From Symbiodinium sp. CCMP2592 (taxonomy: Eukaryota; Sar; Dinophyceae; Suessiales; Symbiodiniaceae): DNA of 64,000 bases. Below, piece after piece: positions 5,780 to 62,043 of this stretch. Position 1 is the stretch's first letter. Every line of letters begins with the position of its first letter. The stretch covers positions 1,419,881-1,483,880 of the forward strand of contig CAJNDT010002001.1 in the NCBI GenBank assembly GCA_905221615.1, written 5' to 3'. Under the pieces are notes generated by a model. That model did not search any database and was not told where the DNA came from. It was given only the letters and a program-made list of their open reading frames with translations. The position numbers and the translations under genes are program-made.

Positions 5780-6676
5780 AGACATTGGCACAGACATGCT
5801 ATCTGGCAACGGTGCACTGATGCCCGCATGTTTTGCATGTATTTCCAACGCTGATGAACTTACGTAGTGTGCATATGCACATCTACACTCTACACGTATG
5901 CATTCACATACATGGGCCGCAGCTTTTCTAATCAAGTATACGATACAACATAGGAAATACAATGAGGGTAAAAAGAAGACGACGACAGTCTATAAGTTCG
6001 TGTAAAGCTGAGTTGTGTATATGCACAGTATGCTACGAGAATAAGAAGGTGTATGTAATGCAAGACGATGCCGATAACAAACGGCAAAACCATACCACAC
6101 ACTGTAGGCAAAAAACAGTATGTGTTTCAAGAGTATATGCAACCCAACGCAAGCAGTTGTATGTGCATATACATACATGCATAGATACGTTTTTGCATGC
6201 ACACATACGTACATGCATGCACGCGCATTCACGCTTGGATTCTGGATTATACATTACATATGTTTCAAGTTTTCATACTTCATCCCAGACGCTTGCATAC
6301 GCCGTGCAGGCTATCTTCCCTACGCAGTTCAGCTTCGACCAGTCGACTGCACGAAGCTTAGACGCTTTTGGCACACCTAAAGTTCGGATCATACAAAGTT
6401 GGGGCCCTAAACCCTGAACCCACAACCGGCTGTCGGGAGGTGAACAGCTGACGAAAAAGAAGGCTTTTAAAACAATCCCTTTGAGGAAGCTCTTGAGTCG
6501 TGGCATGTTTTAGCCGCCTTTCTGGCCTCGCTGCCGTGTGTTGACGTTGAAGTTGTTCGTGTGGTTCCCTGGCCTTCTACATTGTGTGTTCTGCACGATA
6601 CGCCAGTCGCCGTATGCTATCACTATGATCTATATACATTATACATGTTGCATCACTAAACTCAATCCTAAACCCT
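5780..6676. other. Gene-poor spacer upstream of the LINE
   Basis: It contains AT-rich TATG/CATACG-like simple sequence around 6130-6260. A possible short exon lies near 6326-6380 (FSFDQSTARSLDAFG, after an AG). The overlapping 80-150 residue open frames on both strands here have no consistent codon bias. A CCTAAACCCTAA motif at 6667-6679 lies at the LINE insertion point. Confidence 0.4.
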
Positions 6677-6692
6677 AAGCCTTAAGTCTCAG
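6677..6692 (+). repeat. LINE target-site duplication, 5' copy
   Basis: AAGCCTTAAGTCTCAG here is repeated exactly at 15492-15507, directly after the A run at the LINE 3' end. The leading AA may belong to the A tail in the second copy, so the duplication is 14-16 bp. Confidence 0.8.
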
Positions 6693-7022
6693 GCGTTCTG
6701 GCTCGCATCGCGTAGTTTCCCCCGGGTCCGCGTTGCGCTGCCTCAACCCTAGTGTGGACGTGTTCCCACGTGCGGGCTTTCTGCTGTACCTGGACTGGAG
6801 GCAGTTAGCCAACATTCCCCGCTGCGGGCGGCTGGAATATCTGCGAGGCAGATACGAGGTGGATGCGCATCTCCTTCCACCAATTTTTGATCTTCTTTAG
6901 CTTCCTCGGCTTCTACCACGCCGCGACCGACTTTTTCCCAGGCTCGCCGAGCCAGGGAACCAGCTTGGCATCGGCTACAGAGAAAGCGAAGAACTCGGGC
7001 CAGAGGGGTTCTTCGGTCTTTT

Positions 7023-8168
7023 GTGGAAGGCTTGGACACGCCTCGATTGCAGGTGCAACAGGCGTTGACAGCCCTAGCTGGACACCACAGCAATCCGACG
7101 ATTGCAACGCAGGCGGCAGCCAAACTGGCAGGACAGATGGCTACTCCATGGCGATGTGGACCATGCGGCCTCACCAACAAAGCTTCTTCAATGTTTTGCC
7201 CGGGGTGTGGCAAGCATTGGAAGAAGCTTTGTGGCAACCAGCAGGCCCCTTATGTTGGCGAACCCTGGGGCGGCGGATGGCAGCAACCCAGCAGGCGACC
7301 CGCTCAGGATACCTGGCAGCAACCGCCGTCACCACGAAGCCGACGACCGAGATCGCCTCGAGGCAAAGGACAGGGCAAAGCCAAAGGCAAGCAAGATGGC
7401 AAAGGCAAGCCCGACAAGGGGGCTATCCCAGCCACGGCGCGCCCAAGCATCGATCAACTGCCCAAAGCCCCACAGCTGCCGGCGGTACCCACGCCCAAGA
7501 CGGGGGCAGGACCGGGTGGCAGCCTCGAGGACAGAAAGCTCAATGCCTTTCTGGACCAGCTCTCCAAGCAGGAGGATCTTCCGCAATCCGTGCTCGATTT
7601 GATGTCAAAGGCGAATGGCACATCGGTGCAGGAAGAGACCCGGGTGCTTCACAAGCTTGTGAAGCAACGATCGACGGCTTCCACGACCCTGGCTCAATTG
7701 CAGAGGGATCGGGCTTCTTTCGAGGCCTCGTGGGCTTCGTACAGCGAGAGCCTACTCAAGCTGTTGACCGAGCAATTCCAGACCCGACAGGAAACCCTGG
7801 AAAAACTGGACAAGGCACAGCTGGAATGGCAGGAGCAACTTCGGATTGTTTCCAGCCAGATCAAGCAAGCCACAACCGACAGTGGCGAGATCCAGGCCAT
7901 TGGCAGCTCCGACTCGGACGAGATGGACGAAGAGGTGGAGGATGCAGAGACCTGTGCCGCGAGACAGGAACAAAAGCGGCAGCAAGTGGCTGGCCAACAT
8001 GCTCAGATTCTGGATGCACTACAGAAGGTCCAGCAATCAGCGAACGAAGGTGCAGGAAAGCGCGAAGGGTCGCGCACACCGCGCCGGAAGAAAGACAAAC
8101 CAGGCCAGCTCACAGATACAGCCGGCCCAGCCGATGGCAAAACTGGCGAACAGCAGCCTTTTTGCTAG
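7023..8168 (+). CDS. LINE ORF1: RanBP2-type zinc finger, coiled-coil protein
   Basis: Probable RNA-binding ORF1 protein of the LINE. Counting from the GTG at 7023, residues 43-65 form a textbook RanBP2-type finger: W-x-C-x2-C-x3-N-x6-C-x2-C (WRCGPCGLTN...FCPGC). A Pro/Arg/Lys/Gly-rich basic linker follows (about 90-135), then a long helical, Gln/Glu-rich region likely to form a coiled coil (about 220-290), an acidic patch (DSDEMDEEVEDAE) and a basic tail (RRKKDKPG). The frame is open upstream to a TGA at 6888-6890 without any ATG. The first ATG is at 7137, just before the zinc finger, so the true start is uncertain: ATG 7137, a non-ATG start, or trans-splicing. It ends at TAG 8166-8168 and overlaps ORF2, which lies in the -1 frame. 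Confidence 0.75.
   Translation: MEGLDTPRLQVQQALTALAGHHSNPTIATQAAAKLAGQMATPWRCGPCGLTNKASSMFCPGCGKHWKKLCGNQQAPYVGEPWGGGWQQPSRRPAQDTWQQPPSPRSRRPRSPRGKGQGKAKGKQDGKGKPDKGAIPATARPSIDQLPKAPQLPAVPTPKTGAGPGGSLEDRKLNAFLDQLSKQEDLPQSVLDLMSKANGTSVQEETRVLHKLVKQRSTASTTLAQLQRDRASFEASWASYSESLLKLLTEQFQTRQETLEKLDKAQLEWQEQLRIVSSQIKQATTDSGEIQAIGSSDSDEMDEEVEDAETCAARQEQKRQQVAGQHAQILDALQKVQQSANEGAGKREGSRTPRRKKDKPGQLTDTAGPADGKTGEQQPFC
8156..8168 (+). other. ORF1/ORF2 junction, possible -1 frameshift site
   Basis: ORF1 ends with codons CAG CCT TTT TGC TAG. The run CCTTTTTGC contains five T, on which a tRNA reading TTT could slip back one base and continue into the ORF2 frame (reading on as LLGSYTCLSD). It is not a canonical X_XXY_YYZ heptamer. 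Termination-reinitiation or internal entry are alternatives, but the first ORF2-frame ATG after the junction is hundreds of bases downstream. Confidence 0.35.
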
Positions 8169-11100
8169 GCTCGTATACGTGCCTCAGTGATGTATGCGAG
8201 CCGTTCCTTGCGGAAAGGATCCACAGCGTCCAGCGGGAAACGGACTATGTGGACCTTCTCCATGCACAATTTTACGCATGTTCGCTGACCCTCACGGTCA
8301 GCCAGCCAGACCGATACCCGGATCTTCCTGATCCCCGCGTTGCACCCTGTGACCCTGTGGACGACGACTGGGCTTGCATCGGACAGTTGGAAATGCTTCC
8401 TTCCACCTTCCAAGTTCCTCCTTGCAACATGGCCACTGCAGGAGTTGAGCTTGATGCGGTGGGAGGCGGTAGGACCCTGTTCGCTGCCAGCCCGACCGAT
8501 CGTCACAAGAGGCCAGGAATTCTGAGAGCTACTTCTGTACATAGCGATGTACAGGCTGTTAGGCTGTACAAGCAGGTCTCTTTCTTGGAGCACTCGCAGG
8601 TTGAGCAGTTTGCCCCTGGCAGCAGACTCCCTCCTAATCTCCCCGCCGGAGGTGACCCTCCGAACGCTTCCAAAGTCGTTCCTCCTCAGCCCTTGCCGCC
8701 GGGCTCTGACCCAACGACACCGCCACGTAAGGTTGCTAGGGATGGTTCTACTAGAAGCCCTGGACAGATTGCTATCCTTCGTGCAGAGGCGGTCCGAGTA
8801 CTGCCCGAGGAGCTGCGAGCCGCTCCCATCTTCCATGCCCCTGTGCATCAGTTTCCATGGGGCTCTCAGCAATCTGGCCCTTCCACGGCCTATACTGTGT
8901 TTGACCACTCTAGGCACGTGACTGTCAGCCGATGTGCTCCTTTTTCCAGTTTGGCTGAGATAGTTGCACTGTGCATCACAGATGCACCTTTTCAGGTAGT
9001 GGCAATTAAGGTTCTGTCTGACCCACTGCCAGGCCTCCCGCAGCCTCAAATCGTGCTTTGCGAGGCGGGCCGGCCACCCCAAGAGCTGCCTATCCCTTGG
9101 GATCTACGGCCTCTCAGTGAGAACATTCGGACCCTACGACATTACAGCCGCCAAGGCCAAATTGATGCACTGACCCTGGCGCAAGCCCATGTGCGCTCGG
9201 CCAACCTAGTGCAGCAGGTTGCAGATGGCACCCTCGTTGTGACTGACGCCCTAGGAGTGATGCTCCCACAGCTCCCGGCCAACTTGCATGTTGTCCAGCA
9301 TTACCGGGTGACTTTCGATGATACTATAGGCCCTGCCAATCTTGCTCCAGCAGAGGCCAGCCGCTCCGCTACCACTACCACAGTCACGGCTGCACGCGTT
9401 TTGGCAGCTGTGCAGCAGCCACCGGGCGTCAGGCTTGTGCTCCTTAGAGGCAGTGTTGCGCATAGCATCGAGGTTGGAGGCAGGCTCAACTTGATAGACC
9501 CCTTCCTGCTCAGGCTGATAGAGCGCCACGTGCAAGACCGACCTGTCAGCAATGAGTTCTCTTTGGTGCTTGCGCAGGCCCTCCCTCCGCGCCTTGGATA
9601 TCTCCAAGAAGTTATTGTCCTCCTCCAGGAGGATCCCTCCGGAAGCGAAATCTGTTGGGATGCGCGCTTCCTTGGGCATTCCCTGCAGACCTGTGCACTT
9701 AGCCAACATCAGCGTACGCAGCTTCTGCTCAGCCCTGAGTGGCAGGCCGCAGGCTGGGCACTCTCAGTTAATGGAGCACCTGATGTGCACCAGCCCAGGA
9801 ACTTCTTTTCGGGTGATTTTGTTCAGCCTTTTCAGGGGCTCCACACACCGGCATGCACTCCAACCAGCTGGGCCCTTGAGTTGGCACCGGCACTGCAGCC
9901 TCTGGTATGGCCGCTTCGGCTCTCTGATGGAGTCCGCCATCTTTTTCGGGCCCTGCGGCAGCGCAGACAACAGATGGGCACCCACTTCCTTGATGATGGG
10001 ATCATTCGGATCCTGGGCCCTACCCATGGCCCAGTCAGACTCCGCACAGGGACCCATGCCAAACCCGATGAAGCTATCCTCCGGCATGCTCTACAAAGGC
10101 TTGCAGGCTTTCCGGCGCAACTGACCTTTGTGCCCACGACTCACGGAGGAGAGACGGAGACTGTTTTCACAAGCTCCTGCCCTAATTCGGCTTGCAATAC
10201 CGTGCTGACACCTGCTCCGGGATTCAGAGGGCATTTCATTGTCTTGATGGCTGAACCAACGGCCGTTGCCCTCAATGGCGTCCCTGCCGAGCCGGACACG
10301 GTCCTTCATTCACAGACGAATTTCGGTCCGGGTGACGTCTTTATTGGGGCCCAAGATCGCAATTTCATGCCCGAGCCTGATACCAGTGAGCCGGAGCAGG
10401 CACTGGCATCCACCGCCGACGCCATGGGCCTTTTGCAAACCAAGGCCACAATCCAGCGACGGGCAAATAAGCCTCCAGAGCGGCAGATACCGACGCCTTT
10501 CGGGCGCAGACGCATACCTGAGCCTGAGCCACAACCTTCTGCAGCCCACCCACAGTGCATCTGCCTAGACGAGTGTATCCCCCCAGAATCCACTCCCCCA
10601 GGCTTCCATGTGCGACTCGGAGCCAACGAGGAGATGCTGCGAATGGCCTTTCAGGAATGCCACCTTGCGGGCCTTTGTGCTTCTCTTGCTGGCATTGAGC
10701 TCCCTGAAAAAGTCCAGAGCTTCATGCGGGCTATGCCGCCCGCTCTTTCAGCACCCTACGATGCCTTACAGTTCTACACTGATGGCTCCTTTTACCCTGC
10801 CTCTGCCACCAATTCAGCCGCCGCAGGTTGGGCCGTGTGCGTTGTTGGCTTGCAACAAGGCCAGTGGCGATGGGTGGGCTACTGCGCTGCACACGCACCT
10901 ATTGCAGGATCAGCAGCCACCTTCGACACGGCAGTCCGCTCCTCTTTTGAACCCGAGCTAACTGCGGCTGTCGTTGCTTTGGCCTTTGTTTGGCAGTCCG
11001 CCACACCGGCCATGATCGGGTTTGACAATGAGTCAGCGATGCAGATAGCCACGGGCGAGGCGACACAGGCCGTCCCTACCGCACTTGCCCATGCTGGAAT

Positions 11101-14100
11101 GGCAATCGCCCACCTGCTGAGGGTTCAGCGAAGGATGCCTTCCAGGCTGCACATTCCTTCGCATACCGGCCACGTTTTCAATGAACTCGCAGATTGCATA
11201 GCAAAGCACTACGCGCGCAGCCTGGACACCTCCATGGTGCCCTACAACCTTGTCACTGCCAGCAGACAGGATGTGCTGCCCTGGCTTGCTTTTGCATCTA
11301 ATATGTGCCGGGATCTTCCTTATGTAGGAGCCGATGGGGTTCTTGCATCCACCAGTGCCGTCGAAGCCCCACTGACCCACCTGGGCCACGGCCACGATTT
11401 TGTTGACGAGCTCCCGCAGCAGTCCGCCAAAGTCAGCCTCAAGGTCGCAACATACAACAGTCTAACTTTGGCGTCCATTCTGCAAAAGGAAAGCTTGGAT
11501 GCTCAGTTTGCTGCAGCTGGCCTCTGCCTAATCGGCATCCAGGAAACTCGGGCAGAGTGTACTGGACGGAGCTCCACAGCCCACTTCCACGTGCTAGCAA
11601 GCCCTGCTCAAGCAGGAGCTGACGGCTGTCAGCTGTGGCTGTCAAAAACTGAGCCAGTTGGGCACGATAAAAAAGGCGCGATTTACTGGGATCCGGGCAC
11701 CTTCGCCATCGTTTGGGCTACTCCCAGAATTCTAGTGGCTACGGCCCGGGCCGCCTCCCTTTGTTTTGCGCTCATCACTGCTCATGCGCCCACATCAAAA
11801 GCTTCAGAACAAGAATGCAAAGATTGGTGGGCTGAACTCCAGTCGGCCTTTCGGAGAGCCCCTGCCAACCACTGCCCCATTTTAATGGTGGATGCAAATG
11901 CTCATTTCACCTGGAGCCCAGCAGCGCCGGGACCTGCCACAGCACTCAATCATAATGCGGAAGCCTTCGCAGCGCTTCTCCATGAGCAGCAACTTGTTGC
12001 GACGGCCAATTCGATGTCAGATGGCAGCAAGATTGAGAGCTGGCTTGGACCCCTCCAGCGGCCTAAATGCCTGGACTACATTGCCTGCCCTGATTCTTTG
12101 CAACAAGGCCTTGAGGTGCTAGGCTGTCTTGCCGACTTTCATGGGCAAAATGACCTTGACCATCGCCCTGTGCTCGCCAGAATTTCCTTCCACAGGCAGG
12201 TGAGGCGAAGACGAGCGCGGCCAAGGCTTGATACCAAAGCCATGCTCACGCCTTCTGGCCGGGCAAAACTTCGGCAAATCTACGACCGCCTTCCTCACTT
12301 CTCTTGGGATCTCCCGGTGGACCACCATCTTAGGCGCCTCAATGAGTACCTCATGGCAGCCCTTCTACGAGCATTCCCTGCTCAACCACAAGGGCCCCGG
12401 TCTCCGGTTATCCAAGAAGCTACCTGGCAGCTCGTGTGTGACCGTCGCGCTGTGCGCAGAGAGCTGCATGCCTGTGCTTCTCAGCGCCGCCAGCGCCTTC
12501 TTGCCGCTACTTTCGCTGCCTGGGCGCGCAACACGACGCCAGCAGATGATAGTTTAGCCTGCATGTATGAGGCTCTCCTTGTCACACAGCTCCGCGACAT
12601 CTCCGCCAGCATCCGGCGCAGGACACGTGAGGATGCGACAGTTGCCGCGCGGCAACTCATCAAGGAAGCCAGGGCCCAGGGGCCGGAGCAGCTCTACCAG
12701 GCCTTCCGCAACGTGCTCCGCCAGGGACGCAGATATCGACCTCCGGCGCTCTGCCCTTGCATTAAAGGCGCCGAGGCGCATCAGAACGATCCCTACCTCA
12801 TGCTGGGGAGAAGCTTTGCGAGAGCTGAACGTGCCCTTGAGTGCAGTGCTGCGGACATTCACACTCAGCCGGTCCCAGCGCCTGAGGCTTTCCTAGAAGC
12901 AAGCCGTGAACTCACCCTTTCGGCCCTTGCACATGGTTACGGCCGACTGCAGTCCCGGCGTGCCGCTGGGATCTCAGGCATACCACCTGAGGCTCTCAGC
13001 GGCGACGCCCTCGGAGCGGCTGCTGCCCATTACCCTGTGCTGCTCAAGGCACAGGCCACCGGCAAGGCACCGGCCTTGTGGCGCGGTGGCAGAGCAGTGC
13101 CTATACCAAAGCCCTCCAAGTGCCCCAGTGACTTGGCAGGGTGGAGGAGCATCATTCTCCATGAGGCGTCGATGAAGGGCGTCTGCAAGGCGCTGCGCGC
13201 ACCATTGGTGCAATGCCTTGAGAGCCTCAGGTCGGCAGGCCAGTGCGGCGGGCGACCCAAAAATCCACTTCACATTCCCATGGCTTTAGCCAAAGGCTTT
13301 GCCCGCCTGGCCAGGGACGCTGGGGTCAACTGTGCTCTGCTTTTTGTGGACTGCCGAGCAGCATTTTATGCCACGGCACGACAGGCGCTTCTGGGCCAGG
13401 AAGGTGGCGACACTGCTGACTTCCTCCAGCGTCTTGCTGAAGATCTTTACGACAGCCAGGAGGATCGTCTTGCCTTCATTGCTTCCACAGTCGGCCCTGG
13501 ACTCCTCCAGCAACAGGGAGTTCCCGGCCCCGTCCGCAGAGTCCTTTCAGCTATGCTGCAAGGGACGTGGTTTAGCATTGCAGGCCAGGGTAAAACCCAC
13601 TTCTTCAGCACTCGCACCGGAACGGCCCCTGGCAGCCCCATTGCAGACATTGAGTTTCAAATCCTGTTTGCGGGAGCCATGAATAGGCTTGAGGAGAAGG
13701 TTCAAGAGGTCTGCAGGGATATAGGCGCTCGTGCCAAAAACCAGGCAAACCTGGACACCCTGCTTGCCGTTCCGTTCCCAAGTTGGGTCGATGATCTGAC
13801 AATTCCCCTGGCGTCCCCAAATCCAGACCACTTGATCGATACTGCGATCTTTGCGGTCCGGGAACTTGTCAAGGAGCTCCGAGCCCTCGGTATCGAGCTC
13901 AATCTTGATCCAGGGAAGACGGAAATCGTGCCAATGTTCCGAGGGCCACGCAGCAATGCGGCCAAGCGTACTTGGATCTGCGAGAGTGGTGCCTCCCTTA
14001 GGGTGGACCTGCCAGATGGCACCTGCATCCAGGTTGGCCTCACCGATGCCTACGTCCACCTAGGCTCTCGCATAGAGGTCGGTGTCTCAGATCTGTCTGA

Positions 14101-15439
14101 CATGAAGAGACGGGCATCCTTGGCCAGAGAAATGACCGGCCCACTGGGCAAATTGTTTCGCAACTCCGAACTCACCGAGACCGAGCGAATACATTTGCTC
14201 CAGTCCATGCCCATGGCCAGATACAAGCACGGTGCTGGCATGTGGTCACTGGAGACTCGCCAAGAAAGGGACCAATTTGTTGCGGCCTACTACGAGGCAC
14301 CGCGACGTCTCTTCAGAGCTATTACGGGCATGTCGGTCAAGGGCCTTTCCAATTTGGATGTCGCGACCCTGCTCGGCTTAGCTACGGCGGAGGAGATGCG
14401 ATGGGCGGAAATGCTACGCCTGGCAGCTTGGATCTATGCCGAGGACAACGCTGACCTGAGCAATCTTTGGTTTCGAAATCATGTGTGGCATGCTGACCTA
14501 CAGCAGGCTTTTGACGCCGTTGGAGCCGCACTTGGTCAGAGTGGGGAGAGCCTGCGAGGGGACCTCCGGGCTCAACCTGATACTGCAAAGATTCTCATCC
14601 GGCGCTACCTCCGCCACTGCAAAAAATGCCGCCTACTTCTCAAGCCTGCGCGACACAAGCAACTCCGTGCCTTGCAGGCGGCGCAAGCGGCAGGATGCAT
14701 CTTTGGGCGACTTCCCGGATGCACCGATGGCCGCGCGTCAGCTTTTGCGTGCCCCACCTGTGCGCAGAGCTTTGGCTCCACGGCAGCCTGTGCGGCACAC
14801 CAGCGCAAGGTGCATGGACTGCCTGCCCGTGCCACTGCAGTTGCCGACGGCAGCATGTGTCAGAGCTGCGGCACCGAATTCTGGACGACGGCGAGATTGC
14901 GCCAGCATCTTAAAAAGGCTGCGCGTTGCCTGCGGACCTATGAAGAGGCCGACATCACCCACTCTGTTTGCGTGACCGGCCCGGCCCGGGCATGGCAGCC
15001 AGCCGCCAAAGTCCACGGACCGAGCCCCTGGTGGGCCACCATGGACCCGCCACCTACGGTGCCTCCTGCCCCGGTTCCGCGCACACCGTGGCGAGCCCCT
15101 CTCGAGAGGCTCATGCAGTGCTTTCACCGCAAGTCTACGGACCTCACTAGCGCAGTAAACGCAATCCTCCAAACCCGTGCTTTCGATGATCTAGACTGCG
15201 AGGATCTGCCGATTATTGTGCTCCAGGAACCTGCTAAGTTCCGCGATCTTGTGCTGGTTTTGGCACGGATTGCAAATTTTGGACGAGCGCAAAGCGCCGT
15301 CACCGTTGGCAACGGACATTGGACAGCGTACTTTTGTGCAGATCGCTACATCCTCTGTCCCAATACCATAGGACCCCCAGGAGAGCTGCTCGCAGCCCTG
15401 GATGGGCTCCCTGACGAATGGATGCAATGCATCCACTGA
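8162..15439 (+). CDS. LINE ORF2: RNase H, EEP endonuclease, reverse transcriptase, zinc-finger polyprotein
   Basis: Enzyme of target-primed reverse transcription. The frame is open back to an ATG at 6863, but 6863-8160 overlaps ORF1 in another frame and is probably not translated as ORF2. Residues below count from 6863. About 434-1300: unrecognised region. 1303-1455: RNase H with D1307 (YTDGS), E (FEPELTA), D (FDNESA) and D1444 (NELADCIAK). 1528-1775: EEP nuclease with N1532 (ATYN), QETR, TAHAP, VDANAH, CLDYI and DHRPV (H1767). About 2070-2420: reverse transcriptase with motif A FVDCRAAFY (D2163), motif B GTAPGSPIAD, motif C WVDD (D2310, D2311) and motif D LDPGKTEIV, followed by a thumb. 2629-2695: two zinc fingers (CPTC-H-H and CQSC-H-C). 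C-terminus: unknown domain with NGHWTAYF near 2819. Stop TGA 15437-15439. No internal stops. Confidence 0.9.
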   Translation: MLGSYTCLSDVCEPFLAERIHSVQRETDYVDLLHAQFYACSLTLTVSQPDRYPDLPDPRVAPCDPVDDDWACIGQLEMLPSTFQVPPCNMATAGVELDAVGGGRTLFAASPTDRHKRPGILRATSVHSDVQAVRLYKQVSFLEHSQVEQFAPGSRLPPNLPAGGDPPNASKVVPPQPLPPGSDPTTPPRKVARDGSTRSPGQIAILRAEAVRVLPEELRAAPIFHAPVHQFPWGSQQSGPSTAYTVFDHSRHVTVSRCAPFSSLAEIVALCITDAPFQVVAIKVLSDPLPGLPQPQIVLCEAGRPPQELPIPWDLRPLSENIRTLRHYSRQGQIDALTLAQAHVRSANLVQQVADGTLVVTDALGVMLPQLPANLHVVQHYRVTFDDTIGPANLAPAEASRSATTTTVTAARVLAAVQQPPGVRLVLLRGSVAHSIEVGGRLNLIDPFLLRLIERHVQDRPVSNEFSLVLAQALPPRLGYLQEVIVLLQEDPSGSEICWDARFLGHSLQTCALSQHQRTQLLLSPEWQAAGWALSVNGAPDVHQPRNFFSGDFVQPFQGLHTPACTPTSWALELAPALQPLVWPLRLSDGVRHLFRALRQRRQQMGTHFLDDGIIRILGPTHGPVRLRTGTHAKPDEAILRHALQRLAGFPAQLTFVPTTHGGETETVFTSSCPNSACNTVLTPAPGFRGHFIVLMAEPTAVALNGVPAEPDTVLHSQTNFGPGDVFIGAQDRNFMPEPDTSEPEQALASTADAMGLLQTKATIQRRANKPPERQIPTPFGRRRIPEPEPQPSAAHPQCICLDECIPPESTPPGFHVRLGANEEMLRMAFQECHLAGLCASLAGIELPEKVQSFMRAMPPALSAPYDALQFYTDGSFYPASATNSAAAGWAVCVVGLQQGQWRWVGYCAAHAPIAGSAATFDTAVRSSFEPELTAAVVALAFVWQSATPAMIGFDNESAMQIATGEATQAVPTALAHAGMAIAHLLRVQRRMPSRLHIPSHTGHVFNELADCIAKHYARSLDTSMVPYNLVTASRQDVLPWLAFASNMCRDLPYVGADGVLASTSAVEAPLTHLGHGHDFVDELPQQSAKVSLKVATYNSLTLASILQKESLDAQFAAAGLCLIGIQETRAECTGRSSTAHFHVLASPAQAGADGCQLWLSKTEPVGHDKKGAIYWDPGTFAIVWATPRILVATARAASLCFALITAHAPTSKASEQECKDWWAELQSAFRRAPANHCPILMVDANAHFTWSPAAPGPATALNHNAEAFAALLHEQQLVATANSMSDGSKIESWLGPLQRPKCLDYIACPDSLQQGLEVLGCLADFHGQNDLDHRPVLARISFHRQVRRRRARPRLDTKAMLTPSGRAKLRQIYDRLPHFSWDLPVDHHLRRLNEYLMAALLRAFPAQPQGPRSPVIQEATWQLVCDRRAVRRELHACASQRRQRLLAATFAAWARNTTPADDSLACMYEALLVTQLRDISASIRRRTREDATVAARQLIKEARAQGPEQLYQAFRNVLRQGRRYRPPALCPCIKGAEAHQNDPYLMLGRSFARAERALECSAADIHTQPVPAPEAFLEASRELTLSALAHGYGRLQSRRAAGISGIPPEALSGDALGAAAAHYPVLLKAQATGKAPALWRGGRAVPIPKPSKCPSDLAGWRSIILHEASMKGVCKALRAPLVQCLESLRSAGQCGGRPKNPLHIPMALAKGFARLARDAGVNCALLFVDCRAAFYATARQALLGQEGGDTADFLQRLAEDLYDSQEDRLAFIASTVGPGLLQQQGVPGPVRRVLSAMLQGTWFSIAGQGKTHFFSTRTGTAPGSPIADIEFQILFAGAMNRLEEKVQEVCRDIGARAKNQANLDTLLAVPFPSWVDDLTIPLASPNPDHLIDTAIFAVRELVKELRALGIELNLDPGKTEIVPMFRGPRSNAAKRTWICESGASLRVDLPDGTCIQVGLTDAYVHLGSRIEVGVSDLSDMKRRASLAREMTGPLGKLFRNSELTETERIHLLQSMPMARYKHGAGMWSLETRQERDQFVAAYYEAPRRLFRAITGMSVKGLSNLDVATLLGLATAEEMRWAEMLRLAAWIYAEDNADLSNLWFRNHVWHADLQQAFDAVGAALGQSGESLRGDLRAQPDTAKILIRRYLRHCKKCRLLLKPARHKQLRALQAAQAAGCIFGRLPGCTDGRASAFACPTCAQSFGSTAACAAHQRKVHGLPARATAVADGSMCQSCGTEFWTTARLRQHLKKAARCLRTYEEADITHSVCVTGPARAWQPAAKVHGPSPWWATMDPPPTVPPAPVPRTPWRAPLERLMQCFHRKSTDLTSAVNAILQTRAFDDLDCEDLPIIVLQEPAKFRDLVLVLARIANFGRAQSAVTVGNGHWTAYFCADRYILCPNTIGPPGELLAALDGLPDEWMQCIH

Positions 15440-15491
15440 GGACATGCATGCCTGATGAGTGCACTCAACGAGTCCGACCATCCCCACAAAA

Positions 15492-15507
15492 AAGCCTTAA
15501 GTCTCAG
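15492..15507 (+). repeat. LINE target-site duplication, 3' copy
   Basis: Exact repeat of 6677-6692, immediately after the A run of the LINE. Confidence 0.8.
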
Positions 15508-40379: not shown

Positions 40380-41695
40380 ATTCTGGGTTGCAGTGAGAGT
40401 TTCTAATTCGGCCCCTGTTACCTGCGAGCAATGTTCAGACCGAAGGGGAGAGGATCACATCCTCATTGAAAGCGTAGTTGTGTGTGTGTGTGTGTCTTTG
40501 CAATAACAACGACAGGTAATTACTTCCGTCCGACTTTACAGTGCTTGCGTCAGTTGTCTTCAATGATTCCAGGCCCAGTGGCGGTGGCCACTATCTGCAA
40601 GCCCTTCCGAATACCACAGTTTTCGAAGGGAATGTGACATCGCTACGATTTTTTGCTATTGCCTGATCCCATGACCCTCCATACCCATGTAGCACTACAT
40701 CAAGCTTTCCAGTCAGCCTTTACCCAAGCTATCGGGCATCCTACAGGTCAGCTTGTTGTTGGAGAAGTTGGACCTTCCCTACGCACAGCTCCAGGTGGCC
40801 ATGTGGATTTTAATGTAATGAGCTGCCCGTTAGCCGGCAAGGGTCAATCAGTCGTGGAAGCACATCGATTAGCCGCGGCCTCCGCAGTACCGCGCATGTT
40901 TCTAGCATAGGTCATCGCCGTGCTGATTTGGATATGAAGTGCAATCTGGTGTAACTATGTGCCTGTGAGCTGCAATTCGCATTGCAGACCTTATCGTGTC
41001 GATTCCCGGCAAAGCTATGCACAACAACATGAATTGAAACTTCTCCTGATAGATCCTACTGGCCCTCAAACCCTAAGAACCCGTCCGGAGTTCTAGTGGA
41101 CCTCTACGTCATTCACTCTTGATCCCCTGGGTCTCTGCAGCGGGTTGCATGTCAGGAGCTGCGTGTGAGCTGCCGACGGGGATGCAAGGTCCACGCGTCC
41201 ATCAATGAGGGTGAGGCCAGGTGTTTCGGGTTCAGAGGTCCTGAAGATCAAGATCCTACTATGTATGACCTATTTTGGGAGTCCAGTAGCTTACCCTCCA
41301 AAAGATGCCGCAGCATGATCGCTCCCCTCAGAACGGGTGGTGGGTTGTTACTCAGGTGCACCCTAAATTCCAGTCAGGCTGCAGTTCTCCCAATGGTCCA
41401 ATATCTGATGCAAGAATGGCTCATGTGTGGATATGAGGCTGCCGGGTTTGGTGGAAGTGGTGATAAGAGTGTTTTTTTTTCGGGGGCAGGGCCGGGGAAG
41501 GAAGGGATTAGTTTGCGGGATTTATAGATCTTTGGCTGTGACTTTCGGCTGTTAAAGGGGTGAGACATGGGACTTCCTTCGATGTTAGGATGAGTAGTCA
41601 CGTCGGATGCTGTCGAATGCCTGCCAGACGTGCAGGTTTGGCAGACCTCCCCAGGCCAGCAAGCTCTGATCTTTCTTGCTTGGCACGTGCCATAT
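40380..41695. other. No supported gene
   Basis: A (TG)n run lies at 40479-40494. Plus-strand frames at 40653-40910 and 41165-41527 have no clear borders; the former includes a natural-looking stretch (GHPTGQLVVGEVGPSLRTAP) and might be an exon. Confidence 0.25.
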
Positions 41696-41780
41696 GGGGG
41701 TTTCCGAAAATAGGGGACCCTAATATAGTACCCTAAATAGTAGGATCCTTATTCTAGGGGCCCCAAAATAAGGTACCCGG
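41696..41780. mobile_element. Family B mini-element, copy with decayed right end
   Basis: The left end GGGGGTTTCCGAAAATAGGG is intact. The interior matches family B (TATAGTACCCTAAATAGTAG, CCCCAAAATAAGGTACCC). The right terminal repeat is replaced by GGGTTCCGGGACTC. Confidence 0.65.
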
Positions 41781-42045: not shown

Positions 42046-42130
42046 GGGGGTAGCTTATTTTGGGGCCCCTAGAATAAGGATCCTACTATATAGGGTACTA
42101 TATTAGGGTCCCCTATTTTCGGAAACCCCC
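42046..42130 (-). mobile_element. Family B mini-element with ATAT duplication
   Basis: Reverse orientation. GGGGGTAGCTTATTTTGGGG begins it, TTTTCGGAAACCCCC ends it. ATAT flanks both sides (42042-42045 and 42131-42134). A family A copy starts at the next base. Confidence 0.7.
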
Positions 42131-42135
42131 ATATA

Positions 42136-42215
42136 GGCTCCATAGTAGTTCCTTTTTGGGGACTACCTTACAGGATCCTAAGTAGGAACCCTCCAAAAGG
42201 AATTACTATAGAGCC
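42136..42215. mobile_element. Palindromic mini-element, family A, copy 3
   Basis: GGCTCCATAGTAGTTCCTTT at the left, AAAAGGAATTACTATAGAGCC at the right (complementary with few mismatches). Loop TACCTTACAGGATCCTAAGT. Confidence 0.75.
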
Positions 42216-45179: not shown

Positions 45180-45392
45180 AGGGTTTTGGGGTTTTAGGGT
45201 TTAGGATAATTTGGTGTTTTAGGGTTTAGGCTTTAAAATATTTTAGGGTTTTAGGGTTTAGGATATTTTAGGGTTTAGGGTTTAGGACATTTTAGGGCTT
45301 TAGGGTTTAGGATATTTTGGGGTTTTAGGGTTTTAGGGTTTAGGACATTTTAGGGTTTTAGGGTTTAGGGTTTTAGGGTTTAGGGTTTAGGG
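45180..45392. repeat. Interstitial telomere-like array (TTTAGGG-type)
   Basis: Degenerate units (TTTTAGGG, TTTAGGA, ATTTTAGGG) over about 210 bases, G-rich strand on plus. Confidence 0.9.
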
Positions 45393-52976: not shown

Positions 52977-53285
52977 TACCCCTAAACCCTCTAAACCCCA
53001 AACTCTTCCCCTGAAGCCTAAACCGCTAAACCCTAAACCCCTGAACCCTTAAACCCCCAAACCCCCAAACCCTCAACGCCTAAACCCTTAACCCTAAACC
53101 CCTTAATCCTAAACCCTGAAACCCTAAACTCCTAAACCCCAAACCCTTCCCTTGAAACCCTAAACCCCTAAACCCTTCGTCGACGGCTGGTACCTCAGGC
53201 GGGAAAAGGAGCTAAACAAAAAAAACTAAACCCCTAAACCCCCAAACCCTTCCCTTGAACCCCTAAACCCCTAAACCCCTAGGAG
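52977..53285. repeat. Interstitial telomere-like array (CCCTAAA-type)
   Basis: Highly degenerate CCCTAAAC and CCCCTAAAC units with CTTCCCTTGAA interruptions that recur three times (about 53005, 53148 and 53248), so part of the array has been duplicated in larger blocks. Confidence 0.9.
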
Positions 53286-53430: not shown

Positions 53431-53760
53431 GGGTAGAGGGTTTAGGGTTTGGGGGACTTAGAAACTGGCTAATTTAGGGACTTACAAGTACCATAACCCC
53501 AATTAGGGTCCCTTTTGGGGTACTTATAAGTCTACTTACTAACTACTTACTAAGTCCCCCGACCCCCCAAGTAGGGGCTTTAGGGGGCCTTCAGGCGTTT
53601 TGAAGGTTGGGGGTTATAGGGTTTAGGTTGTTGTTAGGGCTTTAGGGCTTTAGGTGTTTTGCTGGGTTTGGAGTTTTAGGGGTCTTCCGGTTTTAGGGTT
53701 TAGAGTTTCAGGTTGAAGGGTTTTAGGGTGTAGGGGTTTAGGGGTCAAGGGGGCTGTATC
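53431..53760. repeat. Telomere-like array, opposite orientation, with mini-element
   Basis: TTTAGGG-type units at 53431-53455 and 53590-53750, interrupted by family F-like AT-rich sequence (53462-53562) containing AGTACCATAACCCCAATTAG and TACTTATAAGTCTACTTACT. Confidence 0.75.
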
Positions 53761-56462: not shown

Positions 56463-56609
56463 TCAGCCGAGAGCTTCAGCTGGGTCAGGCCGACTCGCCA
56501 CTCTCCCCTTCCAGAATCTCACTGCCGCAGCTACCTGTGCGTCGCAAGGCCAGGAGTGCTCGCTCCATGCTTCGAGTAGTTGAGAGGTTTGCCAGTACAG
56601 TAGCCATGT

Positions 56610-56710
56610 GGGAGTTTCCGAAAACAGGGGACTCTACCATAGCACCCTAAATATTAGGATCCTTATTATAAGGACCCCAAAATAAGGTACCCCTAATTTC
56701 GGAAACTCCC
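56610..56710. mobile_element. Family B mini-element, intact, with ATGT duplication
   Basis: Ends GGGAGTTTCCGAAA and TTTCGGAAACTCCC are perfect inverted repeats. ATGT precedes (56606-56609) and follows (56711-56714). The interior contains TAGCACCCTAAATATTAGG and CCCCAAAATAAGGTACCCC. No coding capacity. Confidence 0.85.
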
Positions 56711-61899: not shown

Positions 61900-62043
61900 C
61901 AAGGGTTTAGGGTTCAGGGGTGAGGGTCCTTCCAATTCGGTATTTAGGGTTTAGGGGTTGACGGTTTGGGGTTTTGGGGTTTTGGTTTAGGGTCTTGGGG
62001 TTCAGGGTTTTGGGATTTGAGTGTAGTAGGGTTTAGGGTTTAG
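61900..62043. repeat. Interstitial telomere-like array (TTTAGGG-type)
   Basis: GGGTTTAGGG, GGTTCAGGG and GGGTTTTGGG variants over about 140 bases. Confidence 0.85.

Follow-up and report, generated by a model that had tools for sequence, protein, structure and literature searches.

Closest described systems

In long interspersed nuclear elements (LINEs) of the I group, ribonuclease H (RNase H) lies behind the reverse transcriptase (RT), and the TRAS and SART elements belong to the R1 clade. The element treated here occupies positions 6693–15491, on the forward strand, of a 64,000-nt stretch of DNA from Symbiodinium sp. CCMP2592 (the window), which lies in a 1.098-Gb assembly. As judged from its sequence, it is very probably a recent, full-length insertion from a divergent dinoflagellate lineage of LINEs which have an apurinic/apyrimidinic-type endonuclease (APE) and the domain order RNase H-APE-RT-zinc fingers, and which insert at CCCTAAA tracts. 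The I-group arrangement is not found in this element and its relatives (the window family), which hold one RNase H per frame, ahead of the APE, in all 17 frames.

An RNase H upstream of the RT is already known from the oomycete element Utopia (PMC4640811), where its position is called unique. Utopia resembles the window family in this respect and in its target-specific insertion, but its target is the U2 small nuclear RNA genes, its nuclease is a C-terminal restriction-like endonuclease, whereas the window family has an APE ahead of the RT, and its RNase H is of archaeal type with the residues D-E-D-R-D, whereas a histidine is invariant in 13 members of the window family. Plant and oomycete L1 elements carry their own RNase H at the C-terminal end of open reading frame (ORF) 2, in contrast to its place ahead of the APE in the window family, and the reason why non-long-terminal-repeat (non-LTR) elements acquire this domain has been called "enigmatic" (PMC5348765).

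As for the target, the Bombyx elements TRAS1 and SART1 are telomere-repeat LINEs; TT^AGG is the site nicked by the TRAS1 nuclease, and an A tail is present at SART1 junctions (PMC7265360). The junctions of the window family point to the same type of nick phase and to the same orientation as in TRAS1, but the insect target is (TTAGG)n and the probable target of the window family CCCTAAA/TTTAGGG, TTTAGGG being the telomere repeat of dinoflagellates (PMC11453091). The cited text on the insect elements makes no mention of an upstream RNase H.

Within Symbiodinium, SymbioLINE-Dnmt has two ORFs, an RT and duplications, as does the window element, but its ORF1 contains a DNA methyltransferase, for which Pfam gave no match at E-values up to 10 in the ORF1 region of the window element (7023–8165), and it is described without a poly-A tail, while the window element and its relatives have an A tail (PMC5890265). 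The methyltransferase-bearing Symbiodinium LINEs are regarded as old and active (PMC5890265), and Symbiodiniaceae LINEs as what an ancient expansion has probably left behind (PMC8045281). A figure legend in PMC5890265 includes Exo_endo_phos, RVT_1 and RNase_H among the domains, the last of which may belong to the LINE or only to the DIRS elements. With this legend as a caveat, no earlier description of the order RNase H-APE-RT, or of telomere-repeat LINEs, in dinoflagellates was found in an open-access library, most entries being judged by their listing, nor was the combination of an upstream RNase H with telomere-repeat targeting found described.

Structure of the element and domains of ORF2

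The boundaries of the element were set by the ends of its target-site duplication and by the end of homology with a 95% copy elsewhere in the genome (L009; L numbers denote loci of the assembly). The left duplication, AAGCCTTAAGTCTCAG (6677–6692), is matched exactly by the 16-bp right duplication (15492–15507), both on the forward strand, as are all features given below. The preliminary description of a full-length LINE at 6693..15493 thus stands except for its end, which lies two bases earlier. A short telomere-type tract, CCTAAACCCT (6667–6676), is located immediately 5' of the insertion point, so that insertion occurred at CCCT^AA, and other copies have the same context. The short 3' untranslated region (UTR; 15440–15491) contains a largely conserved core, TGCA...GTGCAC...G(A/G)GT (alignment of 11 members), and ends in A residues; such an A tail was read at the 3' ends of the window copy and of relatives, and the element therefore shows two hallmarks of LINEs, target-site duplication and a 3' A tail.

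ORF2 (8393–15439) is taken from the first ATG downstream of the ORF1 stop, the frame itself being open from 6863 or earlier (6863–15439; 2858 codons). Its RNase H domain (10715–11317), aligned with Escherichia coli RNase HI, contains the residues D, E, D, H and D (first codon base at 10781, 10955, 11024, 11162 and 11192, respectively), which are invariant in the 13 aligned members. The domain is followed by an endonuclease of the endonuclease/exonuclease/phosphatase (EEP, APE-type) fold (11414–12217), identified by Pfam and hidden Markov model (HMM) matches and by the motifs YN, QETR, DANA, DY and DH, and then by the RT (12740–14182), with FVD at 13343 and, instead of YADD, W(V/M)DD at 13784. 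Two C2H2-type zinc fingers (14750–14815 and 14858–14929) match Pfam zf-C2H2 below the cut-off and have Cys/His columns invariant in nine aligned members.

Searched as a whole against Pfam, the 2858-aa protein gave sub-cut-off matches only, which included zinc fingers but neither an RNase H nor a nuclease or RT, and PDB searches with the whole protein and with single domains returned nothing useful (no nuclease, RNase H or RT for the whole protein). Cut pieces of the protein matched PF00075 (E=0.0023, over positions 3–139 of 141), PF14529 (Exo_endo_phos_2; E=0.00092), RVT_1 (E=0.0011) and C2H2 fingers (E=0.0012–0.007), all co-linear, yet below the curated Pfam cut-offs. Profiles of the aligned family were more informative: PF00075 matches all 13 aligned RNases H at E<=0.1 (best 2.7e-9), the RNase H profile finds the RNase H-related protein 2kq2 in PDB (8.4e-6) and named RNases H from 0.0011, and the RT profile finds the RNA-directed DNA polymerase 8c8j (6e-6), the LINE-1 ORF2 protein (1.6e-5) and R2 (0.056). 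These matches support an RNase HI type for the upstream domain, which bears out the earlier identification of that domain, and point to an RT related to LINE RTs, with the catalytic aspartate motifs FVD and WxDD, and to an EEP/APE endonuclease preceding it. In 14201–15436, Pfam returned no further nuclease at E-values up to 10, a test which weak domains could escape.

Domain order in the family

The assembly was searched with the window protein, and 17 of 2007 first-look candidates, chosen by best whole-protein match, were scored, giving 27 matches in 17 elements, the window element included. Among these, the long frame of L009 is interrupted by two stops, of which one falls inside ORF2. The other 15 elements are 34–59% identical to the window protein over their best-matching piece, and 13 of the 15 have frames of 2222–3757 codons. 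Near copies (L015–L017; L019–L021; L009 and the window element) reduce the set to about 12 distinct lineages. Alignments comprised 13 of the 17 for RNase H and APE (four near copies being omitted for RNase H) and 11 for RT.

Independent HMMs, for which only cellular RNases H and the other LINEs of the genome were used (14 RNase H, 3 APE and 9 RT sequences), detect both RNase H and APE (the latter with E up to 0.06) in all 17 frames and RT in 16, with E-values that refer to a 17-sequence database; the frame without an RT match is that of L010, whose RT sits in another frame. The best hits are ordered RNase H, APE, RT in all 16 frames with all three domains, RNase H precedes APE in all 17, and with the family RNase H profile each frame yields a single domain, always ahead of the APE. 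The order of RNase H, EEP, RT and zinc fingers in one frame, first proposed for the window element, is thus carried by its co-linear Pfam pieces and by these HMMs, and recurs in its relatives in the same genome. Some points speak against this reading: the EEP profile found only an exodeoxyribonuclease in PDB (0.02, a weak match), the three-sequence APE HMM gives only E 0.05–0.06 in L015 and L024, an additional, weak APE hit (E=0.15) lies upstream of the RNase H in L014, and scoring 17 of 2007 candidates by best whole-protein match favours complete domain sets.

Searches beyond this set gave no additional members: the window protein had no pattern match in viral contigs, and the RT alignment had 43 pattern matches in viral contigs and 100 in other genome contigs, none of which was confirmed.

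Other RNase H-bearing LINEs and the origin of the domain

RNase H-RT pairs were sought among scored places of the genome, 150 of the 5731 RT candidates and 150 of the 553 RNase H candidates having been scored. The RNase H is upstream in each of the 40 pairs that share a strand and lie within 6 kb (near copies included), and downstream in none, the spacing being 748–806 bp in 39 pairs and 4449 bp in one; one opposite-strand pair was set aside, and most scored RT places have no scored RNase H beside them. A second kind of LINE is represented by L040 (1586–5299), in which APE (2.7e-11), RNase H (3.7e-19) and RT (5.2e-38) follow in that order, all above the Pfam cut-offs, and by L043, with a partial APE, then RNase H, then RT. 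Both share with the window family an RNase H before the RT in one frame, but they place it between APE and RT, contain a canonical YADD RT, end in (GA)n, have no CCCTAAA units in the 3' flank and are distant in the RT tree. L045–L049, read from the RNase H on, have RNase H and then a YADD RT in one frame, while L041 and L042 are APE-RT elements with no RNase H match in the Pfam search. An upstream RNase H is accordingly not peculiar to the window element, contrary to what had been supposed, given the 40 pairs, the APE-RNase H-RT order of L040 and the RNase H before the RT in Utopia (PMC4640811).

Trees were calculated without Repbase references; they are unrooted and have long branches. In the RNase H tree, the 13 window-family domains lie on one side of a 100/100 branch with a long stem, and the 14 others comprise eight further LINE-like RNases H, L053 and five bacterial-type RNases H (L052, in which no RT was seen, was counted as LINE-like, L054 was taken from its annotated gene, and L051 was left out). 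In the RT tree, the 11 window-family RTs likewise form one side of a 100/100 branch, opposite nine other LINE RTs of the genome. The RNase H tree is compatible with either separate acquisition or old reordering, the two origins proposed at the outset; the distinct branch of 13 agrees with that proposal, and the trees do not tell which of the two occurred.

A serious, if tentative, alternative is that RNase H was ancestrally located between APE and RT in dinoflagellate LINEs, as in L040, and moved ahead of the APE in the window lineage, with no separate acquisition. Such a history would fit the upstream position in all 40 pairs, the D-E-D-H-D set common to the window-family and other LINE RNases H, and the ability of the profiles of the two types to detect one another. 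It sits less easily with the long-stemmed 100/100 branch of the window-family RNases H, on the other side of which L040, L043 and L046 join the bacterial-type RNases H (only 89/89), and with the equally wide separation of the RTs (100/100), all in trees that are unrooted and long-branched.

Two further RNase H loci were encountered. L050 (G000:C5051:1856607–1857029) has a 181-aa frame that closely resembles ordinary RNase HI (E 7.1e-45) and groups with bacterial RNase HI, and is a candidate for a cellular gene of bacterial look or for contamination. L053 (G000:C502) has a 1909-codon frame in which zinc-finger-like motifs come after an RNase H.

Reading frames and selection

ORF1 (7137–8168, first ATG to stop; 343 aa) contains, as recognised by eye, a CxxC...CxxC zinc-finger-like motif, a basic region and a coiled-coil-like part, and its protein matches L012 (46%), L014 (39%) and L023 (31%). 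Selection was assessed from the changes per codon position between the window element and its 95% copy. In 6957–8165, 3.5, 1.0 and 8.3% of ORF1 positions 1, 2 and 3 are changed, which indicates selection in the ORF1 frame; in 8264–15436, the values for the ORF2 frame are 3.0, 1.6 and 12.2%, with an excess at third positions. As 6957–8165 is selected in the other frame, the first approximately 430 codons of the long frame are no evidence of ORF2. The uninterrupted frame noted earlier is indeed open over 2858 codons, but its beginning overlaps the separate ORF1, and a start of ORF2 at the beginning of that frame was rejected, the codon-position pattern there fitting ORF1. Both frames are open over about 430 codons in 6863–8168. 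Six relatives have a single frame of 3411–3757 codons, so that ORF1 may be fused or reached via frameshifting.

The RNase H domain itself shows 2.0, 1.5 and 16.4% changes at codon positions 1, 2 and 3 and is under purifying selection. The upstream domain is therefore very unlikely to be an inactive RNase H fold, whether decayed or structural: the weak Pfam score of the single sequence would allow this, but the catalytic residues are invariant in 13 members and the third-position excess is strong.

Between ORF1 and the RNase H, an N-terminal region of ORF2 (8699–10282) is conserved in 11 aligned members and has no confident Pfam match; parts of it match twice in relatives, which suggests a repeated domain.

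Probable telomere-repeat target

In the window element and L009, the duplications start with AA straight after CCCT. The upstream pieces of ten further elements were read, and duplications were found in nine of them, hence in 11 of 12 elements overall; all eight unambiguous duplications are at CCCT^AA, a context which accounts for 104 of 4941 [CGT]AA sites (2.1%) in the rest of the window, the background being taken from the window only. Because of the A tail, the nick could be as many as three bases beyond this point. The 5' junctions of 12 elements could be read (excluded were L015, as well as L010, L014, L018 and L022, whose junctions were not found by motif), and all 12 of the 75-base 5' flanks, duplication included, hold at least two CCCTAAA-like units, compared with 302 of 20,000 random 60-mers (1.5%; window only, and 60 rather than 75 bases). 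Taking either side, at least two units occur in 15 of 19 elements, the remaining four being known from the 3' side only. The three 3' flanks of other LINEs (L040, L042 and L043) contain none.

The best reading of these junctions is an insertion preference of the window family for telomere-type CCCTAAA repeats. It has to be set against several contrary observations. No duplication was found in the upstream piece of L015; three of the 11 duplications (L011, L016 and L019) lie in tandem arrays where the exact nick is unreadable, and, as read, CCCT does not precede the matched stretches of L011 and L016; for L012, the position of the 5' end was set once its CCCTAAA context was known; and on the 3' side only nine of 18 flanks have at least two units (16 of 18 at least one), those of the window copy and L021 holding none, so that a short upstream tract may suffice. 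A very improbable alternative, that CCCTAAA tracts are merely common and the association reflects open or A-T rich sites instead of APE target specificity, would draw on the many CCCTAAA-like arrays of the window, where exact heptamers cover 0.8%, but it is opposed by the eight of eight unambiguous sites in a context of 2.1%, the units in all 12 of the 5' flanks but in only 1.5% of the random 60-mers, and the three unit-free 3' flanks of other LINEs.

With a preference for CCCTAAA tracts, insertion might proceed as follows. The element's own APE would nick the G-rich strand at TTT^AGGG, the resulting TTT end would prime on the A tail of the RNA in target-primed reverse transcription, and the RT, which may recognise the conserved 3' UTR, would copy the RNA. 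The RNase H, acting in cis in the same protein, would then remove the template RNA and make a second strand possible. Its position before the nuclease would require another packing of the protein, but not another chemistry.

Other features of the window

Interstitial CCCTAAA/TTTAGGG arrays are located at 45180–45392, 52980–53281, 53611–53743 and 61943–62043. A 91-bp inverted repeat (96.7%; 41689–41778 and 42048–42138), with diverged copies at 56603–56692 and elsewhere, looks like a small mobile element. In the 3' UTR of the LINE, RNAalifold predicts a 5-pair helix without covariation, while in an alternative 4-pair hairpin, picked by eye, both bases of one pair are changed in three of 11 sequences, and 10 of 500 shuffles reach its score; a hairpin is therefore suggestive only. 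The window has no DinoSL motif at up to three mismatches, whereas the 21-base spliced leader occurs exactly 217+212 times in the genome and its reversed control 0 times, which supports a dinoflagellate as the organism.

Implications

The chances are about even that the window family is an undescribed non-LTR clade, so far of one dinoflagellate genome, which acquired an N-terminal RNase H of its own and whose APE evolved telomere-repeat targeting independently, in a genome where RNase H comes first wherever it was found paired with an RT in LINEs; such a clade may also have kept or spread interstitial CCCTAAA tracts. The many LINEs with RNase H before the RT, in two orders and beside LINEs without it (L041 and L042), constitute a natural test set for the role of RNase H in second-strand synthesis. 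If the targeting is as proposed, telomere-repeat insertion of an APE-type LINE in a protist whose telomeres consist of TTTAGGG would be a second case beside the insect TRAS1/SART1, and would provide a testable link between LINEs and the interstitial telomeric tracts of dinoflagellate genomes.

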